64,000 bases of DNA from Bacteroidales bacterium. GTDB lineage: Bacteria > Bacteroidota > Bacteroidia > Bacteroidales > Tenuifilaceae. This document shows, piece after piece, positions 130 to 8,272 of this stretch. The translations under genes and the position numbers were made by a program. Numbering within the stretch: the stretch's first letter is position 1; every line of letters starts with the position of its first letter. The notes beneath the pieces were generated by a model. It did no database searches. It was not told the DNA's origin and was given only the letters and a program-made list of their open reading frames with translations. The DNA is taken from contig JAFGDZ010000077.1 in assembly GCA_016931855.1 (NCBI GenBank), positions 1-64,000 on the forward strand, in the 5' to 3' direction.

Positions 130-1779
130 TTAATACTTCATTAGAAAGGAGATAAGGTCGGTAGAGGAGTCTTCTATTTGTAATTTTTTCCTAAGTCTTT
201 TTCTTGCAACCTCTATGGTGTTTTGTGGTTGGTGGGTTAGCGATGCTATGTCTTTAGTATTCATATTCATTTTTAAAAAGGCGCAAAGTTTTAAGTCATT
301 TGCTGTTAAATTTGGGTATTCGTGGCTTAGATTTTTAGTGAAATCGGAGTGGACCTCTTTAAATCGCTGCTCAAATTCTTTAATAATGTGTTCGTTCATC
401 TTGTTTCTGAGTTCAAATACAATTTGTTCAATTGCCTTAATATTTTCTTGTTTTACATTTGGTATAAGTTGCTCCAACTTCTTTATAGTGTTTTTTATTA
501 GTTCGTTACGCTCGTAAAGATTCATGGTTATAATTACGGTCTCCTTATTTTTAAACTCAAGTTGTTCCTGTAATACCCTTGCCTCAAGTAGGGTCTTTTC
601 TTTAAGTACTGCTGCGTGTTTATTTCTTGTTTTGTTGAGTGCTATTGTTACAGTTAGCACAAAGATTAGTGCAATAGCAGTAAATAGGAGTATAATTAGT
701 TTAATGCGTGCAATTCTATTAATTTCATTTTTCTCGAAATTGTTACGCTGGCTGGCTTTATCTAAAAGGTACTGATATTCTAAATAGTTTATTTTGCTGG
801 CATCGCTAATGTTTTGCAAGCTGTCTTTTATTGTAATATGCTGTTTAAGATAGAGTAAGGACTTATCTGCGTTTCCCTTCATTTCTTCCATGTAACTAAG
901 AGATTCTGTTAGGTTTCTTATATCGTATGATAGGTTATTACGAACGGCAAGTTCATGACCCATTTCAAGAAAAAACTTGGCTTTAGCATGGTTGCCTTGC
1001 CAAAGCAAGAAATTCCCATAATTGGTATAAACTAAGCATCGGGTATTATCATCGTGGGCATTTGCAATAAAATCTAACGCTTTTATAAATGATTTTTTTG
1101 CCAGTGTGCTATCGTTGAAATGCTTATAGTATAGGTTGCCTAAATTATTGTATGCTATGGCTAAGTCAATTGTGTCTTTATTTTCTAGGGTGAGCATAAT
1201 GCTGTAGTTATAGTATGCCTCTGCTTTTGTTGGATCATTAGTGGTTTCGTACAGATTTGCTAAATTGTTGTATATGTGACTAGTTCCTTCGTTGTTTTTT
1301 ATGTTGATATAAATTGTTAAGCTACTATTGTAGCTGTTTAATGCTCGGGTGTAGTCGCCAACCATATAGTAAATATTCCCCATATAGTTATAAACCCAAG
1401 CAATGGAAAGTGAATCGTTAAGGGTTTCATCAAGGGGAAGCTTCTTTAAAAGGCTAATCATAGACTCTTTATATCTATGATTTAAGTAGTGGTTATAAGC
1501 CATTTTTCCGTATAGGTACGCTTCTTGCTGAATATCTTTATTTCTGTTTGCAATGGTAATGGCCTGTTCTAAGTAATTATTTGGTTTTTTGCTTTGCTGC
1601 AATTCGGTTTCGTTCCATTGTTTTGTAAGCCAGTTTATGCTGTCGGTATATGTTTGATGCTCTTTAGTTTGACCGTTTGCGGTATAGTTTACCTGACTTA
1701 GCAGAAGGAAAAGAATGTATATAATTGTATTTTGAGGAAAGAAAAGAAATAAACTCTGTTTTGTGAGTTTTCGTTTCAT
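130..1779 (-). CDS. TPR-repeat membrane regulator with C-terminal LuxR-like HTH
   Basis: A 549-residue protein of the common Bacteroidota 'TPR + transmembrane + coiled coil + HTH' design. Visible parts: a hydrophobic N-terminal signal/anchor (about residues 12-33), tetratricopeptide repeats (about 60-320; recurring A-x-x-Y-x-N-x-G-N-x-Y patterns), one strong transmembrane segment (about 355-378), a Lys/Glu-rich coiled coil, and a C-terminal helix-turn-helix (about 490-545) with the pattern T-x-x-D-L-K-L-C-A-x-L-x-x-x-x-x-T-K-D-I-A. The TPR part is probably periplasmic and the HTH cytoplasmic, giving a one-component sensor-regulator. Target and ligand cannot be read from sequence. It stands alone, divergent from the aromatic operon and convergent with the gene to its left, so it could in principle act on the aromatic operon, but nothing shows this. 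Confidence 0.85.
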   Translation of the reverse strand: MKRKLTKQSLFLFFPQNTIIYILFLLLSQVNYTANGQTKEHQTYTDSINWLTKQWNETELQQSKKPNNYLEQAITIANRNKDIQQEAYLYGKMAYNHYLNHRYKESMISLLKKLPLDETLNDSLSIAWVYNYMGNIYYMVGDYTRALNSYNSSLTIYINIKNNEGTSHIYNNLANLYETTNDPTKAEAYYNYSIMLTLENKDTIDLAIAYNNLGNLYYKHFNDSTLAKKSFIKALDFIANAHDDNTRCLVYTNYGNFLLWQGNHAKAKFFLEMGHELAVRNNLSYDIRNLTESLSYMEEMKGNADKSLLYLKQHITIKDSLQNISDASKINYLEYQYLLDKASQRNNFEKNEINRIARIKLIILLFTAIALIFVLTVTIALNKTRNKHAAVLKEKTLLEARVLQEQLEFKNKETVIITMNLYERNELIKNTIKKLEQLIPNVKQENIKAIEQIVFELRNKMNEHIIKEFEQRFKEVHSDFTKNLSHEYPNLTANDLKLCAFLKMNMNTKDIASLTHQPQNTIEVARKRLRKKLQIEDSSTDLISFLMKY

Positions 1780-1902
1780 GGGGGTAGGTTTTAGTCTATT
1801 TGGGTTGCTCTAAAATAAAGTATGCAAAGGATTATCATCCTGATAAATATCATGTGCTTATTTCCCAAAAGTTTGTATTATTGCACTCAAATACTGCACA
1901 AA

Positions 1903-1980
1903 ATGATTTTGACCCGTTCATATTACGCCTATTACTTTTACTTCTTTAGCAATAAAGGGGCTGGCAATAGTATGGACTAA
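1903..1980 (+). CDS. Leader peptide 1, Tyr/Phe-rich (attenuation)
   Basis: A 25-residue open frame whose centre reads SYYAYYFYFFS: five Tyr and three Phe codons within nine consecutive codons (1921-1947). It stops at 1978-1980, 30 bases before a strong terminator (2011-2037), and lies upstream of the Phe/Tyr biosynthesis genes. This is the layout of a ribosome-stalling leader peptide: scarcity of charged tRNA-Tyr or tRNA-Phe would hold the ribosome at these codons. No strong Shine-Dalgarno is visible, as is usual in this phylum. The peptide itself is probably not functional. Confidence 0.85.
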   Translation: MILTRSYYAYYFYFFSNKGAGNSMD

Positions 1981-2037
1981 AGTGATGTAACTTACAAACC
2001 ATAATATTAAAGGCCCCGCACTGCGGGGCCTTTTTTT
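1941..2037 (+). promoter_or_regulatory. Attenuator 1: alternative hairpins and terminator
   Basis: Three mutually exclusive pairings can be drawn. Pause hairpin: CTTCTTT (1941-1947) with AAAGGGG (1954-1960). Antiterminator: GGGGCT (1957-1962) with GGCCCC (2012-2017), one end pair being G-U. Terminator: AGGCCCCGC (2011-2019) with GCGGGGCCT (2023-2031), followed by seven T from 2031. A ribosome stalled in the Tyr/Phe run would mask 1941-1947 and favour the antiterminator. A ribosome reaching the stop codon would cover 1957-1962 and let the terminator form. The pairings come from reading the sequence, not from a folding program. Confidence 0.75.
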
Positions 2038-2057
2038 GTTAATACCATATTAGAACT

Positions 2058-2141
2058 ATGCACACAGCAAGTGCTTTATTTTTTGGCTTTTACTACTACT
2101 ATTTCTTCCAAGAGTACTCGGGAGCCAATACTGCTGTGTGA
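2058..2141 (+). CDS. Leader peptide 2, Phe/Tyr-rich (attenuation)
   Basis: A second short frame, 27 residues, with the core LFFGFYYYYFF plus one more Tyr: five Phe and five Tyr codons within 2079-2117. It begins 27 bases after the stem of the first terminator and ends 25 bases before a second terminator in front of pheA. Its sequence is not a duplicate of leader 1, but the design is the same. A role as an attenuation sensor for the aromatic operon is inferred from position and codon content. Confidence 0.88.
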   Translation: MHTASALFFGFYYYYFFQEYSGANTAV

Positions 2142-2194
2142 AAACCAAAACCAGAAGTTTAACAGAAGGGCTCCCAAATCGGGGGCCTTTTTCA
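2083..2194 (+). promoter_or_regulatory. Attenuator 2: 1:2 / 2:3 / 3:4 hairpin set before pheA
   Basis: Segment 1:2 is TTGGCT (2083-2088) with AGCCAA (2123-2128). Segment 2:3, the antiterminator, is GGGAGCC (2120-2126) with GGCTCCC (2169-2175), seven perfect pairs. Segment 3:4, the terminator, is GGCTCCC (2169-2175) with GGGGGCC (2181-2187), containing one G-U pair, followed by a T run. Region 2 lies in the last codons of the leader peptide and region 1 in its Phe/Tyr run, as in classical enterobacterial phe and trp attenuators. Confidence 0.8.
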
Positions 2195-2207
2195 TTTTAA
2201 GGAGGTT

Positions 2208-3086
2208 ATGAAAAAACGTATTGCAATTCAGGGTTACCAAGGAGCCTTCCATCAGGAGGCCGTTGAGTCGTACTGGCCGCAAGGTGTCGAACTTGTTGAG
2301 TGCGCCACCTTTGAGCAGTTGGTGCAGTCGGTAGTAAAGGGCAAGGCGCACTATGGCGTTATGGCCGTAGAGAACTCGCTGGTGGGCTGTATCCTTCCCA
2401 ATTTTCTGCTAATCCGCGAGTCGGGGCTAAGCGTAATAGGCGAGGTTTACCTGCGCATTACTCAAAACCTAATGGCGCTTCCGGGCGAAACGCTCAGCAG
2501 CCTAAGGCGGGTAGAGTCGCACTACATGGCAGTGGCGCAGTGCAAGGATTTTTTGGGAAGCAATCAGCATCTGTCTGTGGTGGAGAGCACTGATACTGCG
2601 CTTAGCGCCCGCAATATTGCTCAGCATTCGCTAAGGGGCGTAGGGGCAATAGGCAGTATGGCGGCGGCAAACCTTTACGGCTTGGATGTTATTGCGCCAT
2701 CCATTGAGACCAACAAGGAGAACTTTACCCGATTCCTTGTGCTTAGCCCCATAAATCAGCCAATTGCCTCCGATGTTGCCGTAAAGGCCACCATCGCCTT
2801 TGCCCTAAAGCACCAGCCGGGCAGCCTTGCCGGTATCCTTAACCAGATTGCCGATTCTGGTGCCAACCTAACCATGCTGCAATCGCTACCCATGGTGGGG
2901 CACGCGTGGGAGTATATTTTCCATGCCGATATCTGCTTTGACTCAATGGAACAGGCACAGCGCATGCTCTCTTGCCTCTCGCTCGGCCTGCCTTCGCTTT
3001 GGGTTATGGGCGTTTACCCTCAGGCAGAAATGGCAATGCAGGGCTCATCTGTAGAATCATCAAAAACACAAAATTATGAATGTTGA
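2208..3086 (+). CDS. pheA: Prephenate dehydratase with ACT domain
   Basis: Converts prephenate to phenylpyruvate, the committed Phe step. A two-lobed PDT domain (residues 1-180) carries the E-N-S motif at 55-57 and T-R-F at 174-176, the catalytic threonine motif. An ACT domain (about 195-270) contains the Phe-binding-type H-Q-P-G-S-L-A stretch. The second ACT motif, usually E-S-R-P, reads Q-S-L-P here, so classical Phe feedback may be altered. The start is set by a good AAGGAGG upstream of ATG 2208 and by the attenuator ending just before it. There is no fused chorismate mutase; that activity sits three genes downstream. It overlaps the next gene by 11 bases. Confidence 0.96.
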   Translation: MKKRIAIQGYQGAFHQEAVESYWPQGVELVECATFEQLVQSVVKGKAHYGVMAVENSLVGCILPNFLLIRESGLSVIGEVYLRITQNLMALPGETLSSLRRVESHYMAVAQCKDFLGSNQHLSVVESTDTALSARNIAQHSLRGVGAIGSMAAANLYGLDVIAPSIETNKENFTRFLVLSPINQPIASDVAVKATIAFALKHQPGSLAGILNQIADSGANLTMLQSLPMVGHAWEYIFHADICFDSMEQAQRMLSCLSLGLPSLWVMGVYPQAEMAMQGSSVESSKTQNYEC

Positions 3087-4245
3087 TATCGCAAAGCGAT
3101 TACAGGGTACTACCGAGTACTTTTTTGCGCAAAAAATGGAGGAGCTCAGCTGGCTTAGGGAGCAGGGCGTTGATGTTATCAACCTTGGCATAGGTAACCC
3201 CGATTTACCCCCACCAGCACCAATGCAGCATGAGCTAACCGCTGCTGCGGCACAACCCAATGTGCATGGATATCAGGCATCAAGGGGAAATAGGATTTTG
3301 GTTGATTCCATTGCTAGGTGGTATAAGCAGCACTTTGGTGTTGATTTAAATACCCCTTCCGAGGTGCTACCGCTTATGGGTTCAAAGGAGGGAATACTGC
3401 ACCTCTCCATGGCTTTGCTTGGCGATGGCGATGTGGTTTTGGTTCCCAATCCGGGTTATCCCGTTTATGCCATTGCTGCACGATTGGCTGGTGCCCAGAT
3501 TGTTGAGTACGATATGACCGATGAGCAGGGCTTTTGCCCTAACCTAAAGGCGCTGGATCCAAATCTGCTAAAGCGGGTTAAGGTTATTTGGGTAAACTAT
3601 CCGCACATGCCAACGGGTGCAGTGGGCTCTGTTGAGCTGTTTAGGGAGCTGGTTGCCTTTGCCAGTGAGCATAGCATCGTTATTTGTAGCGATAATGCGT
3701 ACAGCTTCATCCTAAACCCGAATCCCATTAGTATTCTTAGCGTTGAGGGGGCAAAGGAGGTTGCCGTGGAGCTAAACTCGCTTAGCAAATCGTACAACAT
3801 GGCCGGTTGGCGTGTGGGGATGCTGGTGGGCAACCCGCAGATTATTGGGCTGGTAGAGCGGTTTAGGTCTAACATGGAATCGGGGATGCCGTTGCCAGTT
3901 CAGCTGGCGGCTGCGGCGGCCTTGGGCATGGGGAATGAGTGGTTTGTATCGCTTAACCAGCAGTACAAGGAGCGTAAGCAGCTGGCCATTAGGCTTGCCC
4001 GCGAGCTGGATTGTGAGGTGGTGGCCTCGCATGCTGGATTGTTTGTTTGGTGCCGTATTCCGCCCTATGTAGCCGATTCCGATTCCTTCTCGGCCGAGAT
4101 ACTGCGGCAAACGGGAATCTTTTTAGCGCCGGGTAGCGTGTTTGGCTCAAATGGTGAGCGATTCCTACGCATATCGCTTTGCGCCCCTGTTGAAACATTT
4201 GCCAGTGCCATTAGGCGTTCATGGGCTTTTGAAATAATTCGCTAA
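3076..4245 (+). CDS. PLP-dependent aminotransferase (class I/II), probably aromatic
   Basis: A fold-type I aminotransferase of 389 residues. The PLP lysine is K238 in S-L-S-K-S-Y-N-M-A-G-W-R, D206-x-x-Y209 matches the cofactor-binding Asp/Tyr pair, and an Arg in R-I-S-L near the C terminus matches the substrate carboxylate clamp. The usual N-P-x-N-P-T-G loop reads N-Y-P-H-M-P-T-G, with Met in place of the second Asn. Placement between pheA and tyrA suggests transamination of phenylpyruvate and 4-hydroxyphenylpyruvate, or of prephenate. Annotation pipelines may call it an aspartate or LL-diaminopimelate aminotransferase homologue. It overlaps pheA by 11 bases, so coupled translation is likely. 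Confidence 0.9.
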   Translation: MNVDIAKRLQGTTEYFFAQKMEELSWLREQGVDVINLGIGNPDLPPPAPMQHELTAAAAQPNVHGYQASRGNRILVDSIARWYKQHFGVDLNTPSEVLPLMGSKEGILHLSMALLGDGDVVLVPNPGYPVYAIAARLAGAQIVEYDMTDEQGFCPNLKALDPNLLKRVKVIWVNYPHMPTGAVGSVELFRELVAFASEHSIVICSDNAYSFILNPNPISILSVEGAKEVAVELNSLSKSYNMAGWRVGMLVGNPQIIGLVERFRSNMESGMPLPVQLAAAAALGMGNEWFVSLNQQYKERKQLAIRLARELDCEVVASHAGLFVWCRIPPYVADSDSFSAEILRQTGIFLAPGSVFGSNGERFLRISLCAPVETFASAIRRSWAFEIIR

Positions 4246-4257
4246 ACCAGTACAGCT

Positions 4258-5115
4258 ATGAATGTAACAGTAATTGGTGCCGGATTAATGGGCTCATCAA
4301 TGGGATTAGCACTGCGCCGCAAAGGGCACTGGGTTTTTGGTTCCGATTTGCAGCAGGCAAACGCTCAGCAGGCGCTCAGCATTGGGGCTTTTGATGCAGT
4401 GTCAACACTCTCCGATGCGGTGTCCCGCTCAAAGCTAGTGGTGGTTGCAACTCCCGTTGATGCGGCCATTGCGCTGCTACCACAGCTGCTGAGCACTATC
4501 CCAGCCGATTGCACCGTAATGGACCTAGGCTCAACAAAGGCGGCCATTTGTAGCGCTGTGGCCACGCATAGCAATAGGGGTGCATTTGTTGCTGCACACC
4601 CCATGGCTGGGAAGGAGAGCGGCGGCGCTTTGGGTGCCGATGCCCTGCTATTCCACGGAAAACCCTTTGCCATTTGCAATCAGGAGCAAAGCGCAAAGGA
4701 GGCGTTGCAACTGGTGTGTACCACTATTGCCGAGATTGGCGCACGCCCCTTTTTCTGCACTGCCCAGCAGCACGATTCTAGTGTTGCTCTGGTATCGCAT
4801 TTCCCTCAGCTGCTGGCCTATGCCTACGCTTCATTGCACGGCTTTAGTCAGGATGGCTGGCAAAACCTAGCTGCTTCTGGATTTGGCTCTGCAACTCGCT
4901 TGGCCTGTAGCCCTTCCGATGTGTGGATTCCCATCTTTGAGCAGAATAATCACAATATCAAGGAGCTGGTTGCCGAGATGCAGTCTGTGCTCCAGCTAAT
5001 TGCCGATGCATTGGCCGTTAACGATGCGAATGCCCTTAAATCTTTAATAAACAGCGCACACGCAACACGTAGAGCCTTTGATAGGCGCGTAATGGGTGAG
5101 CATCAAAATGTATAA
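4258..5115 (+). CDS. tyrA: Prephenate dehydrogenase
   Basis: Oxidatively decarboxylates prephenate to 4-hydroxyphenylpyruvate for Tyr. A Rossmann motif G-A-G-L-M-G-S-S starts at residue 7. D-L-G-S-T-K and H-P-M-A-G-K-E-S-G-G (about residues 113-122) are the conserved dehydrogenase motifs, and H-D-x-x-V-A-L-V-S-H-x-P-Q is present in the helical C-terminal domain. At 285 residues it is a stand-alone enzyme with no ACT or chorismate mutase domain. It sits 12 bases after the aminotransferase and 18 before the DAHP synthase fusion. Confidence 0.95.
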   Translation: MNVTVIGAGLMGSSMGLALRRKGHWVFGSDLQQANAQQALSIGAFDAVSTLSDAVSRSKLVVVATPVDAAIALLPQLLSTIPADCTVMDLGSTKAAICSAVATHSNRGAFVAAHPMAGKESGGALGADALLFHGKPFAICNQEQSAKEALQLVCTTIAEIGARPFFCTAQQHDSSVALVSHFPQLLAYAYASLHGFSQDGWQNLAASGFGSATRLACSPSDVWIPIFEQNNHNIKELVAEMQSVLQLIADALAVNDANALKSLINSAHATRRAFDRRVMGEHQNV

Positions 5116-5133
5116 CAGAATAACATTATAGTG

Positions 5134-6258
5134 ATGATAGTAAATGGTTTAACTAAGAGTCTTACGGAGCGGGTATCCACCGGGAATCCGTTAATAATAG
5201 CAGGGCCATGCAGCGCCGAATCGCCCGAGCAGCTGCTGGATGTGGCAAAAGCCTTACGCGCCGATGGCAGAACGCACTATTTCCGTGCTGGGGTATGGAA
5301 GCCGCGCACATCGCCAGGAACGTTTCAGGGTGTTGGTGTTGAGGCGCTAAAGTGGATGGCCATGGTTAAGCGGGAAACGGGGCTTCCCGTGGCAACGGAG
5401 GTTGCCAATGAGCGTCACGTTTACGAGGCGCTTAAGCATGGGGTAGATTTGCTTTGGATTGGCGCTCGTACCGTTAGCAATCCATTTACGGTTCAGGAGA
5501 TTGCCGAGGCCATTCGTGGGGTGGATATCCCCGTGCTGGTTAAGAATCCGCTTAGCCCCGATGTTGACCTTTGGGAGGGTGCCATAAATCGCTTTGCGAG
5601 GGTGGGCATAACGCAGCTGGGCGCAATACATAGGGGCTTCTCGTGGTGGGGAAAGTCCATCTTTAGGAATCAGCCTTACTGGAGCATTCCATCGAGCTTA
5701 AAGGAGCGCATGCCCAACCTGCCCATAATTTGCGACCCAAGCCATATCGCCGGGAGGCGCAACCTTGTGCCAATAATTGCACAGCGCGGGTTGGAGCAGG
5801 GGCTAAATGGCCTTATGGTTGAGGTGCACCCATCGCCAGAGCATGCGCTTAGCGACTCCCAGCAGCAGCTTACTCCCGATAGCTTTGTTGCGCTGCTTAG
5901 CGCTTTGCAGGATTTGCAGCGCTCCTTTGCCCTGCCCGAGGAGCTGCTTGCCGAGCTGCGCACAGAGGTTGACTCAATAGATGACTTGCTGCTCTGGGCT
6001 TTAACCAACAGAATGGAGCTCTCGGAGCAAATTGCCAACATAAAGAGTGCTAATAGTTTGCCCGTTTTTCAGCAGGCACGGTGGGGACAGGTACTAGATA
6101 GGGTGGTGCAGCTAGGAGGAGGAAAGGGGCTGCGACCAGCCTTTGTAAAGCGCTTATTCTCCAGTATTCACAAAGAATCGTGCTTTGTGCAGCAAGCTCT
6201 TGTTGAGAAGAAACCTGCAAAATCGGAAAAACAGGTTAACTTTATATCTTCAAAATGA
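5134..6258 (+). CDS. DAHP synthase - chorismate mutase fusion
   Basis: A bifunctional protein. The N-terminal part (about 1-255) is a type I-beta/KDO8P-like DAHP synthase, with A-G-P-C-S-A-E-S near residue 22, W-K-P-R-T-S-P-x-x-F-Q-G-x-G, and I-C-D-P-S-H-x-x-G-R-R. It condenses PEP and erythrose-4-phosphate. The C-terminal part (about 265-345) is an AroQ-type chorismate mutase helix bundle (R-x-x-x-D-S-I-D, R-M-E-L-S-E-Q-I-A-x-I-K). The fusion puts the first pathway enzyme and the Phe/Tyr branch enzyme on one chain, so feedback could act on both. ATG 5134 is chosen; a GTG three bases earlier is equally in frame. The next gene starts 7 bases after its stop. Confidence 0.94.
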   Translation: MIVNGLTKSLTERVSTGNPLIIAGPCSAESPEQLLDVAKALRADGRTHYFRAGVWKPRTSPGTFQGVGVEALKWMAMVKRETGLPVATEVANERHVYEALKHGVDLLWIGARTVSNPFTVQEIAEAIRGVDIPVLVKNPLSPDVDLWEGAINRFARVGITQLGAIHRGFSWWGKSIFRNQPYWSIPSSLKERMPNLPIICDPSHIAGRRNLVPIIAQRGLEQGLNGLMVEVHPSPEHALSDSQQQLTPDSFVALLSALQDLQRSFALPEELLAELRTEVDSIDDLLLWALTNRMELSEQIANIKSANSLPVFQQARWGQVLDRVVQLGGGKGLRPAFVKRLFSSIHKESCFVQQALVEKKPAKSEKQVNFISSK

Positions 6259-6265
6259 TACCTCC

Positions 6266-7297
6266 ATGGAACAAGTTGTAATTAACGGATTATCTGGAAA
6301 TTCAACCATTTATATTGGTGAATCAATTGATAGTTTAAGTAAGTACATCCCATCCGAAAACGTATTTATTATTACCGATAAAAACGTTGAGGCGCTGTAT
6401 GGTAACCGATTCCCCGATTTTCCTGTTTATGCCATAGAGCCAGGAGAGGGCTCTAAGAGCTTTATCTCTGCAACCAACGTGTTTAGGTGGCTGCTTGATA
6501 AGGGTGCCGACCGTAGCTCCTTTATTGTGGGAATAGGCGGCGGTGTTGTTTCCGATTTGGCTGGCTTTGTGGCCTCTACCTTTATGCGTGGCGTTAGGTT
6601 TGGCTTTGTTGCCACTACGCTACTCTCTCAGGTTGATGCTAGTGTGGGCGGCAAGAATGGCGTTAACCTCGATGGTTTTAAAAACATTGTGGGAACCTTT
6701 AATCAGCCTCAATTTGTTATTTGCGATATAAGCACACTGGGTACGCTGCACAGGGATGAGTATAGCAACGGCCTTGCCGAGGTGGTTAAGCATGCCCTTA
6801 TATACGATGCCGATAAGTTCAGCTTTCTGGAGAAGAATAAGGCGGGAATAATGGCTTTTAATCAAACCATAATGACCTTTTTGGTGAACCGCTCGGTAAA
6901 TATTAAGGCCGATATTGTTACTGCCGATGAGCGAGAGACAGGTATCCGGCGTAAGCTAAATCTGGGGCACACATGGGGCCATGCAGTTGAGAAGGTTACT
7001 GGTATGCCCCACGGACAGGCGGTTAGCATTGGTATGGCGTTTTCGGCGGGTTTCTCCCTAAAAAAAGGATACCTGAGCAAGGTTGAGCACGACAGGATTA
7101 TTGCGCTGCTCACCGACCTTGGCTTGCCCATTACAACAACCGCCAATCCTATGGTTATTTTTGAAACCTTGCTGCGCGATAAGAAGAAGGAGCAGGATGG
7201 AATCCACTTTGTTCTTATGGAAGGTATTGGTAGCGTAAAGGTTGAACTGCTTAAAACTGATGAAATTAAAGCATTTGCCAATGAGTTTGCCCAGTAA
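6266..7297 (+). CDS. aroB: 3-dehydroquinate synthase
   Basis: Second shikimate-pathway step (DAHP to 3-dehydroquinate; NAD and metal dependent). Typical motifs: G-G-G-V-V-S-D-L-A-G-F-V-A-S-T, L-L-S-Q-V-D-A-S-V-G-G-K-N-G-V-N, and the metal ligands in the H-T-W-G-H-A-V-E stretch. The frame is open further upstream (to 6185), but the homologous protein starts at ATG 6266, clear of the preceding gene, giving 343 residues, the normal family length. The C terminus overlaps aroD by 17 bases. Confidence 0.96.
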   Translation: MEQVVINGLSGNSTIYIGESIDSLSKYIPSENVFIITDKNVEALYGNRFPDFPVYAIEPGEGSKSFISATNVFRWLLDKGADRSSFIVGIGGGVVSDLAGFVASTFMRGVRFGFVATTLLSQVDASVGGKNGVNLDGFKNIVGTFNQPQFVICDISTLGTLHRDEYSNGLAEVVKHALIYDADKFSFLEKNKAGIMAFNQTIMTFLVNRSVNIKADIVTADERETGIRRKLNLGHTWGHAVEKVTGMPHGQAVSIGMAFSAGFSLKKGYLSKVEHDRIIALLTDLGLPITTTANPMVIFETLLRDKKKEQDGIHFVLMEGIGSVKVELLKTDEIKAFANEFAQ

Positions 7298-7934
7298 TAT
7301 TTGCGTTAGCCTTGCTAGTATGCCGTTTAGCGAGCTTATGGATGCTTTGCAAAAGTACCCTTTGGCCGAGGTTAGGATGGATTTGCTAAACCTAACCAAC
7401 CAGCAGTACAAGGAGGTGTTTGCCAGCCACGGTGCGCTTATTGCAACGCATAGGGCAGGCGCAATACCGGAGCAGGAGAGGGAGCAGCAGCTAATACACG
7501 CCCTGAATTGGGGTGCTGCTTTTGTTGATTTGGAGATGGAAACCACTCCAGAGTGGCGACTACCAATTGTAAACAGGGCTAAGGAGCTAAACAGAAGGGT
7601 GATACTCTCGTACCACAACTATTCTAGCACTCCAACCTGTAAGGAACTGTATGATATTGCCGATTCTCTTTTCGATTCGGGTGCCGATATAGCCAAAATA
7701 GCCTGCATGGTAAACCTCCCATCCGATAATGCCAAAATCCTATCGCTATACGCCAAGTATGCTAACATTGTGGCAATTGGGATGGGGCAGGGTGGCCAAA
7801 TATCGCGAATTGCTGCGCCAATACTTGGTGCGCCATTTACCTTTGCTGCCATTGCTGGCAAGGAGACTGCACCTGGGCAGCTAACACAGGAGCAGCTTCA
7901 GGAGCTGTTTCATTTGGTAGGATATAAGGAGTGA
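7281..7934 (+). CDS. aroD: 3-dehydroquinate dehydratase, type I
   Basis: Third shikimate step through a Schiff base. Seen: E-V-R-M-D-L-L (substrate-binding E-x-R-x-D), I-A-T-H-R-A, the catalytic histidine in S-Y-H-N-Y, the Schiff-base lysine in A-K-I-A-C-M-V, and G-M-G-Q-G-G-Q-x-S-R at the C-terminal end of the barrel. ATG 7281 gives 217 residues, a normal type I length; the frame extends upstream to 7242, but that part has no homology-like features. The start lies inside aroB (17-base overlap), indicating translational coupling. Confidence 0.95.
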   Translation: MSLPSNICVSLASMPFSELMDALQKYPLAEVRMDLLNLTNQQYKEVFASHGALIATHRAGAIPEQEREQQLIHALNWGAAFVDLEMETTPEWRLPIVNRAKELNRRVILSYHNYSSTPTCKELYDIADSLFDSGADIAKIACMVNLPSDNAKILSLYAKYANIVAIGMGQGGQISRIAAPILGAPFTFAAIAGKETAPGQLTQEQLQELFHLVGYKE

Positions 7935-8272
7935 AAACGTGAGACGTGAATCGTTAAACGTTAAAGAGCTTGTCTCGCCCCTAGGCGAGATTAAACGTTA
8001 AAGGATTTGGTAGTTGCTGGAATCTAAAGCGTTGATATTTAACCTCTAAAATTCATGTGTTGTGTTAAGAAAAAGTGCTTTGTCATTAGTGTTTTTGTCT
8101 AGAATCTAACGTCTAAAATCTAACGTCTTTTTTTATAACCTTAAAACTTCATAAGTTGCCCCGCTGGGGCTTGTTAGGAAAAGGTGCTTTACCATTAGTG
8201 TTTTTGTCTAAAATCTAACATCTTTCTCCTTTAACTTTTAACTTTTAACCTTTAACCTTTAGTCTTAAATCC
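7935..8272. repeat. Non-coding repeat-rich spacer between aroD and aroE
   Basis: This 338-bp gap in an otherwise tight operon contains no gene. It holds (a) a block at 7966-8025, with a self-complementary TCTCGCC-CCTA-GGCGAGA core, that recurs inverted at 47003-47062 with only a few differences; (b) a unit with TGCTTTGTCATTAGTG at about 8062-8113, repeated with small changes at 8170-8226; (c) a GCCCC-GCT-GGGGC hairpin at 8159-8170; and (d) a run of short TTAACTTTTAAC-type direct repeats at 8230-8262. A third version of unit (b) occurs at 63541-63602. Whether it contains an internal promoter or terminator for aroE is not clear. Confidence 0.8.

Follow-up and report, generated by a model that had tools for sequence, protein, structure and literature searches.

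Leader-peptide attenuation is a textbook mechanism that has been studied mainly in Proteobacteria. In enterobacterial pheL-pheA, as in the locus described here, a short Phe-rich leader frame, a terminator and a competing antiterminator are found before pheA, and pheL codes for Phe runs only. With other sensors, repeated attenuators for one and the same signal are known from the PyrR sites of the Bacillus pyr operon, from tandem T-boxes and from riboswitches, so that there are precedents for same-signal attenuation in series. Among leader peptides, our locus is like the Salmonella mgtCBR leader, where a single leader RNA has two short ORFs in series, each of them belonging to a separate attenuator (PMC3641672), a tandem that was called singular in the same paper. 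The available portion of a 2010 survey describes two tandem attenuator-like terminators before one gene, rimP, in some Gammaproteobacteria, an arrangement which our locus also resembles, and gives no leader-peptide systems outside Proteobacteria and Actinobacteria save its own Firmicutes case (PMC2965389). For the Bacteroidota, the accessible part of a study on Flavobacterium psychrophilum reports a transcript-supported structured 5' element of pheA and a structured 5' element of hisG, together with clues to leader-peptide attenuation before amino-acid operons (PMC9723704).

Leader frames and terminators before pheA

We analysed a stretch of DNA of 64 kb (the window), in which the following features were located.

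130-1779, minus strand: gene upstream of the leaders, on the divergent strand
1876..1883, plus strand: putative promoter -7 element TATTATTG, Bacteroidota TAnnTTTG type with one mismatch
1903..1980, plus strand: leader peptide 1, MILTRSYYAYYFYFFSNKGAGNSMD, 25 codons and stop
1957..2017, plus strand: predicted antiterminator 1, GGGGCU (1957-1962) with GGCCCC (2012-2017)
2009..2037, plus strand: intrinsic terminator 1, 11 bp stem at 2009-2033, then U tract
2058..2141, plus strand: leader peptide 2, MHTASALFFGFYYYYFFQEYSGANTAV, 27 codons and stop
2120..2175, plus strand: predicted antiterminator 2, GGGAGCC (2120-2126) with GGCUCCC (2169-2175)
2164..2193, plus strand: intrinsic terminator 2, stem of 2164-2175 with 2181-2192, and U tract
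2208..3086, plus strand: pheA, prephenate dehydratase, the first structural gene (Pfam PF00800, E 1e-50)
3076..4245, plus strand: class I/II aminotransferase (PF00155)
4258..5115, plus strand: tyrA, prephenate dehydrogenase (PF02153/PF20463)
5131..6258, plus strand: aroF-type DAHP synthase fused to chorismate mutase (PF00793 and PF01817)
6263..7297, plus strand: aroB, 3-dehydroquinate synthase (TIGR01357, above cut-off)
7281..7934, plus strand: aroD, type I 3-dehydroquinate dehydratase (PF01487)
8273, 9171 and 10489 (starts): aroE-, aroA- and aroC-like frames, assigned by inspection with no profile search

Since the upstream gene is on the opposite strand, the leaders lie in a divergent intergenic region. 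The operon supplies both Phe and Tyr, and the mixed Phe/Tyr codons of the leaders match these products. Right before the pheA ATG stands a strong Shine-Dalgarno-like AAGGAGG (window 2197-2208); such motifs were seen at only 2 of the 81 pheA loci compared, and that of the window is unusual for Bacteroidota. The gap between aroD and aroE (window 8060-8225) holds an imperfect direct repeat of about 50 bp containing GTGCTTTGTCATTAGTGTTTTTGTCT.

The initial annotation had described two short Tyr/Phe-rich frames of 25 and 27 codons, terminators 25-30 bases past each of them, and an antiterminator arm at the end of each leader. The frames were found as described, 8 of 9 codons being Tyr/Phe at 1921-1947 in the first and 10 Phe/Tyr codons lying at 2079-2117 in the second. 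Both terminators are also present, but the spacing held for unit 1 alone, with 28 nt between stop codon and terminator stem as against 22 nt in unit 2. In both units, the 5' arm of the antiterminator is the end of the unit's own leader frame, in agreement with the annotation. The double arrangement of leader and terminator before pheA is therefore confirmed. An in-frame ATG at 1822 would lengthen leader 1 to 52 aa, and the start at 1903 is favoured over it because of its conservation and the position of the putative promoter; in the nearest relative (L011), the homologue of leader 1 reads MNNTRSYYSYYFYFFSNKGA.

A division of labour, with one unit for Tyr and the other for Phe, was considered and rejected because of the approximately 1:1 mix in both. 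Within the family, Tyr accounts for 0.51 of the Phe/Tyr codons in distal and 0.50 in proximal leaders. When codons of the run have changed, 71% (distal) and 79% (proximal) of them stay Phe/Tyr, versus 22% for random single changes. As the two codon types are mixed about 50:50 in both leaders, a shortage of either amino acid should relax each unit, and the second unit would repeat the sensor of the first. Single attenuators for other amino acids were also seen in the genome of the window. At L096 (G000 C59:8500-12500, minus strand), a His leader, MLHHHHHSHRCEWWKALLV, stands before hisG and is followed by a very strong terminator. At L098 (G000 C78:156500-161500), a Trp leader with terminator (2411-2550, plus strand; MACNIITNSSWWWRSDTYPVLSAIAIY, SSWWWR) precedes a chorismate-binding, trpE-like gene. 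The homoserine dehydrogenase locus of this genome showed no leader with terminator, and the genome lacks ilvD.

Predicted pairing and proposed mechanism

The folding check suggested in the initial annotation came out in its favour: each leader region folds better than all of 200 dinucleotide shuffles (z -3.4 and -3.3). In the free RNA, the predicted folds of both units contain a 1:2 protector hairpin, formed by leader run and leader end, and the terminator. When a ribosome was placed at 1921-1939 and the terminator 3' arm was left untranscribed, antiterminator 1, whose upper stem joins 1966-1975 with 1999-2008, folded with -21.2 kcal/mol, and antiterminator 2 reached about -18.2 kcal/mol with stalls at 2079-2100 under the same setting. 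If the stall was set at 1945, where run 1 has its last Phe codon, the 5' arm was masked and only a weak fold of -12.2 was left. Compared with shuffles, the antiterminators of the window gave p 0.01 (unit 1) and p 0.02 (unit 2), and across units the mean energy was -17.6 versus -9.1 in shuffles, with p<=0.05 in 77 of 91 units. In the full-length RNA at equilibrium, the terminator wins over the antiterminator in every stalled state folded, so the antiterminators would have to work kinetically, during transcription, as is usual among attenuators.

Pairing of each leader end with its own terminator is preferred in the window (-20.6 and -18.3) over cross pairing (-12.6 and -13.6). The same preference was seen at most tandem loci, the exceptions being L003, L010 and L065, which indicates that the two switches are largely orthogonal. 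Compensatory, two-sided changes were found at 4 pairs in both antiterminator helices, and the covariation score of both antiterminators, calculated on few related sequences (10 and 8) with hand-anchored arms, exceeded 500 of 500 shuffles and every slid register. The arms were anchored by hand because automatic alignment misplaced the terminators of proximal units. In both units, a leader ORF rich in codons for the end products is followed by an intrinsic terminator before the structural gene, and the predicted antiterminator excludes the terminator, its 5' arm being maskable by a ribosome at the leader end but open to pairing during a stall in the run. As modelled, each unit is of the classical four-region attenuator design.

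We consider it probable (roughly 0.85) that one transcript passes two serial ribosome-mediated attenuators, both reading charged tRNA-Phe and tRNA-Tyr, before it reaches pheA. One promoter just upstream of 1903 would start a transcript running through both units to the aromatic genes, and in each unit a ribosome would trail RNA polymerase through the Tyr/Phe-codon-rich leader frame. With both charged tRNAs plentiful, the ribosome at the leader end would cover the 5' arm of the antiterminator, the terminator would form, and transcription would stop at about 2037 (unit 1) or about 2193 (unit 2). With Phe or Tyr short, the ribosome would stall in the run, the leader end could pair with the 5' arm of the terminator, and the polymerase would continue. 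As both units would read the same two amino acids, full expression would require relief twice. If the units are assumed to be independent, the output would be the product of two read-through fractions, and such a product rule would give lower basal expression, tighter shut-off and a steeper response. The computations show the frames, the terminators, the alternative pairings and their covariation, the conservation of the two units and the absence of promoter motifs between them; leader translation, stalling, termination and multiplicative output are what we infer from the sequence, a multiplicative gate being reasonable given the serial geometry.

Distribution of the tandem and alternative readings

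Regions upstream of pheA were gathered from named genomes and from the order, the family and the phylum. Perlabentimonas gracilis (L011), a cultivated relative, has the tandem as well. Its upstream region and that of family member G151/L056 do not differ, and if the label of P. gracilis is followed, the family of the window is Tenuifilaceae. Two complete units, at a threshold of 6 Phe/Tyr in 12 codons, were found in 21 of 81 regions. Outside the family, tandems occur at L003, L017, L028/L031, L029, L066 and L067, and in the wider class at L118/L126 and L128, with weaker calls at L010, L058, L065 and L086. On a quick PheA tree, on which gains and losses of the tandem are not distinguishable, 9 changes are required to explain the tandem label, of which well-supported branches force no fewer than 6. 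Judging from these sequences, the doubled version seems to have arisen several times. No prephenate dehydratase match was obtained in 15 of the 27 family genomes, which suggests frequent loss of Phe synthesis in this family.

The initial annotation had argued that the pair is not a simple recent duplication, and this was borne out. In a comparison of 12 family genomes and L017, 24 of 26 units were most similar to a unit of their own position class, and same-position units scored 105 (distal) and 71 (proximal). Scores between distal and proximal units averaged 41 both within one genome and between genomes. Since distal units resemble distal and proximal units resemble proximal ones across genomes, a recent duplication of one unit was rejected.

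The best surviving alternative is that a single unit regulates, the other being either a copy that is redundant or in decay, or a partial terminator that acts constitutively. In its favour, most relatives outside the family have one unit, and L002 and L004, nested among tandem lineages, keep a single leader. Against it, all 12 pheA-bearing members of the family keep the pair, even at PheA identities of about 50% (the count includes L050, where the second leader is reached only by searching further upstream), and each unit possesses a Phe/Tyr run and a covarying antiterminator of its own; we therefore regard regulation by one unit as unlikely. The leader remaining in L002 and L004 (FASYFYFYFYF) resembles by eye the distal unit of L051, which suggests that the proximal unit was lost there.

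It is still less probable that the units act in parallel, each behind an alternative promoter of its own. Second leaders do retain a full, self-contained unit, and in L051, L052 and L055 leader 2 is preceded by a gap of 80-112 nt that would leave room for a promoter. Terminator 1 and ATG 2 are, however, separated by 25 nt in the window and by 10-61 nt in most tandem loci, and a TAnnTTTG-like element was absent 20-109 nt before all of 23 second leaders; a promoter between the two units was rejected because no motif was found. Before first leaders, such elements cluster at 20-39 nt (about half of n=116). In the window, the putative -7 element lies 27 nt before leader 1, and no clear -33 element was found near it. 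Promoter motifs before first leaders and their lack before second ones indicate a single transcript that carries the units in series.

With regard to chance, bare runs of 5 Phe/Tyr codons are not rare (62 genome-wide versus 86 for the reversed pattern), so the significance rests on the whole architecture; the 64-kb window contains no Phe/Tyr units besides these two. Of 81 pheA upstream regions, mostly from Bacteroidales, 66 contain a leader (7 or more Phe/Tyr in 12 codons) with a terminator behind it, versus one of the 81 reverse complements and none of 405 dinucleotide shuffles. The idea that the leaders are chance T-rich, low-complexity frames, and that the terminators serve to stop transcription from upstream or in antisense, or to produce small RNAs, can draw on the frequency of bare runs, but it is dismissed in view of this count, of the upstream gene being on the other strand and of codon changes that keep Phe/Tyr.

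A wider sample gave leader and terminator (threshold of 6 Phe/Tyr in 12 codons) in 48 of 49 loci with more similar PheA, most of them of the class Bacteroidia, and in 0 of 20 with more distant PheA. These loci of the wider class mostly carry a single unit. Together, the two counts make the single-unit attenuator near-constant at pheA of the class Bacteroidia. The comparison proposed in the initial annotation thus supports its reading of ribosome-mediated attenuation: Phe/Tyr runs and terminators are both kept in related pheA upstream regions, the antiterminator stems covary, and a pattern of terminators kept without the runs was absent. Phe/Tyr leaders were also seen at L102, L106, L133, L136 and L138, loci with close PheA that are listed as of the same phylum only; there, pheA could have been transferred together with its attenuator.

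Comparison with known systems

The Rfam model of the Phe leader (RF01859, Phe_leader) aligns end to end over each unit, with scores of 37.3 bits (unit 2) and 27.0 bits (unit 1), both below its gathering cut-off of 55 bits. In 12 related loci, no Rfam match reached gathering level. A T-box or other Rfam element was rejected, since the window gave weak matches only and the 12 related loci none at that level.

Nearly all genomes of the class Bacteroidia that were examined have Phe/Tyr leaders before pheA, and in one family these are doubled and conserved. We lean towards the view that same-amino-acid leader-peptide attenuators in series are a recurrent Bacteroidia design, selected as a two-stage gate with orthogonal RNA pairing that would make the entire aromatic pathway respond more sharply to Phe/Tyr. 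Such serial units offer a natural test of whether stacked identical sensors tighten shut-off and steepen the response, and the tandem Phe/Tyr attenuator could be a ready-made part for engineering Bacteroidota.

In the literature searched, whose coverage was partial, no description of serial leader-peptide attenuators for the same amino acids was found, and as far as that literature goes, the pair seems to be a novel form of an established mechanism. Unlike pheL-pheA, the leaders of the window have Phe and Tyr at about 1:1 and form two units in series, and the structural genes behind them span the Phe and Tyr branches as well as shikimate genes. For the pheA and hisG elements of Flavobacterium psychrophilum, the accessible part of the study mentions no tandem (PMC9723704), whereas the window has one. 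For rimP, the available portion of the survey describes neither a pair of leader peptides nor amino-acid codon runs (PMC2965389), and the window has both. The two units of mgtCBR respond to different signals, ATP and proline, and work without intrinsic terminators (PMC3641672), whereas those of the window, both mixing Phe and Tyr about equally, would respond to the same amino acids and end in intrinsic terminators.
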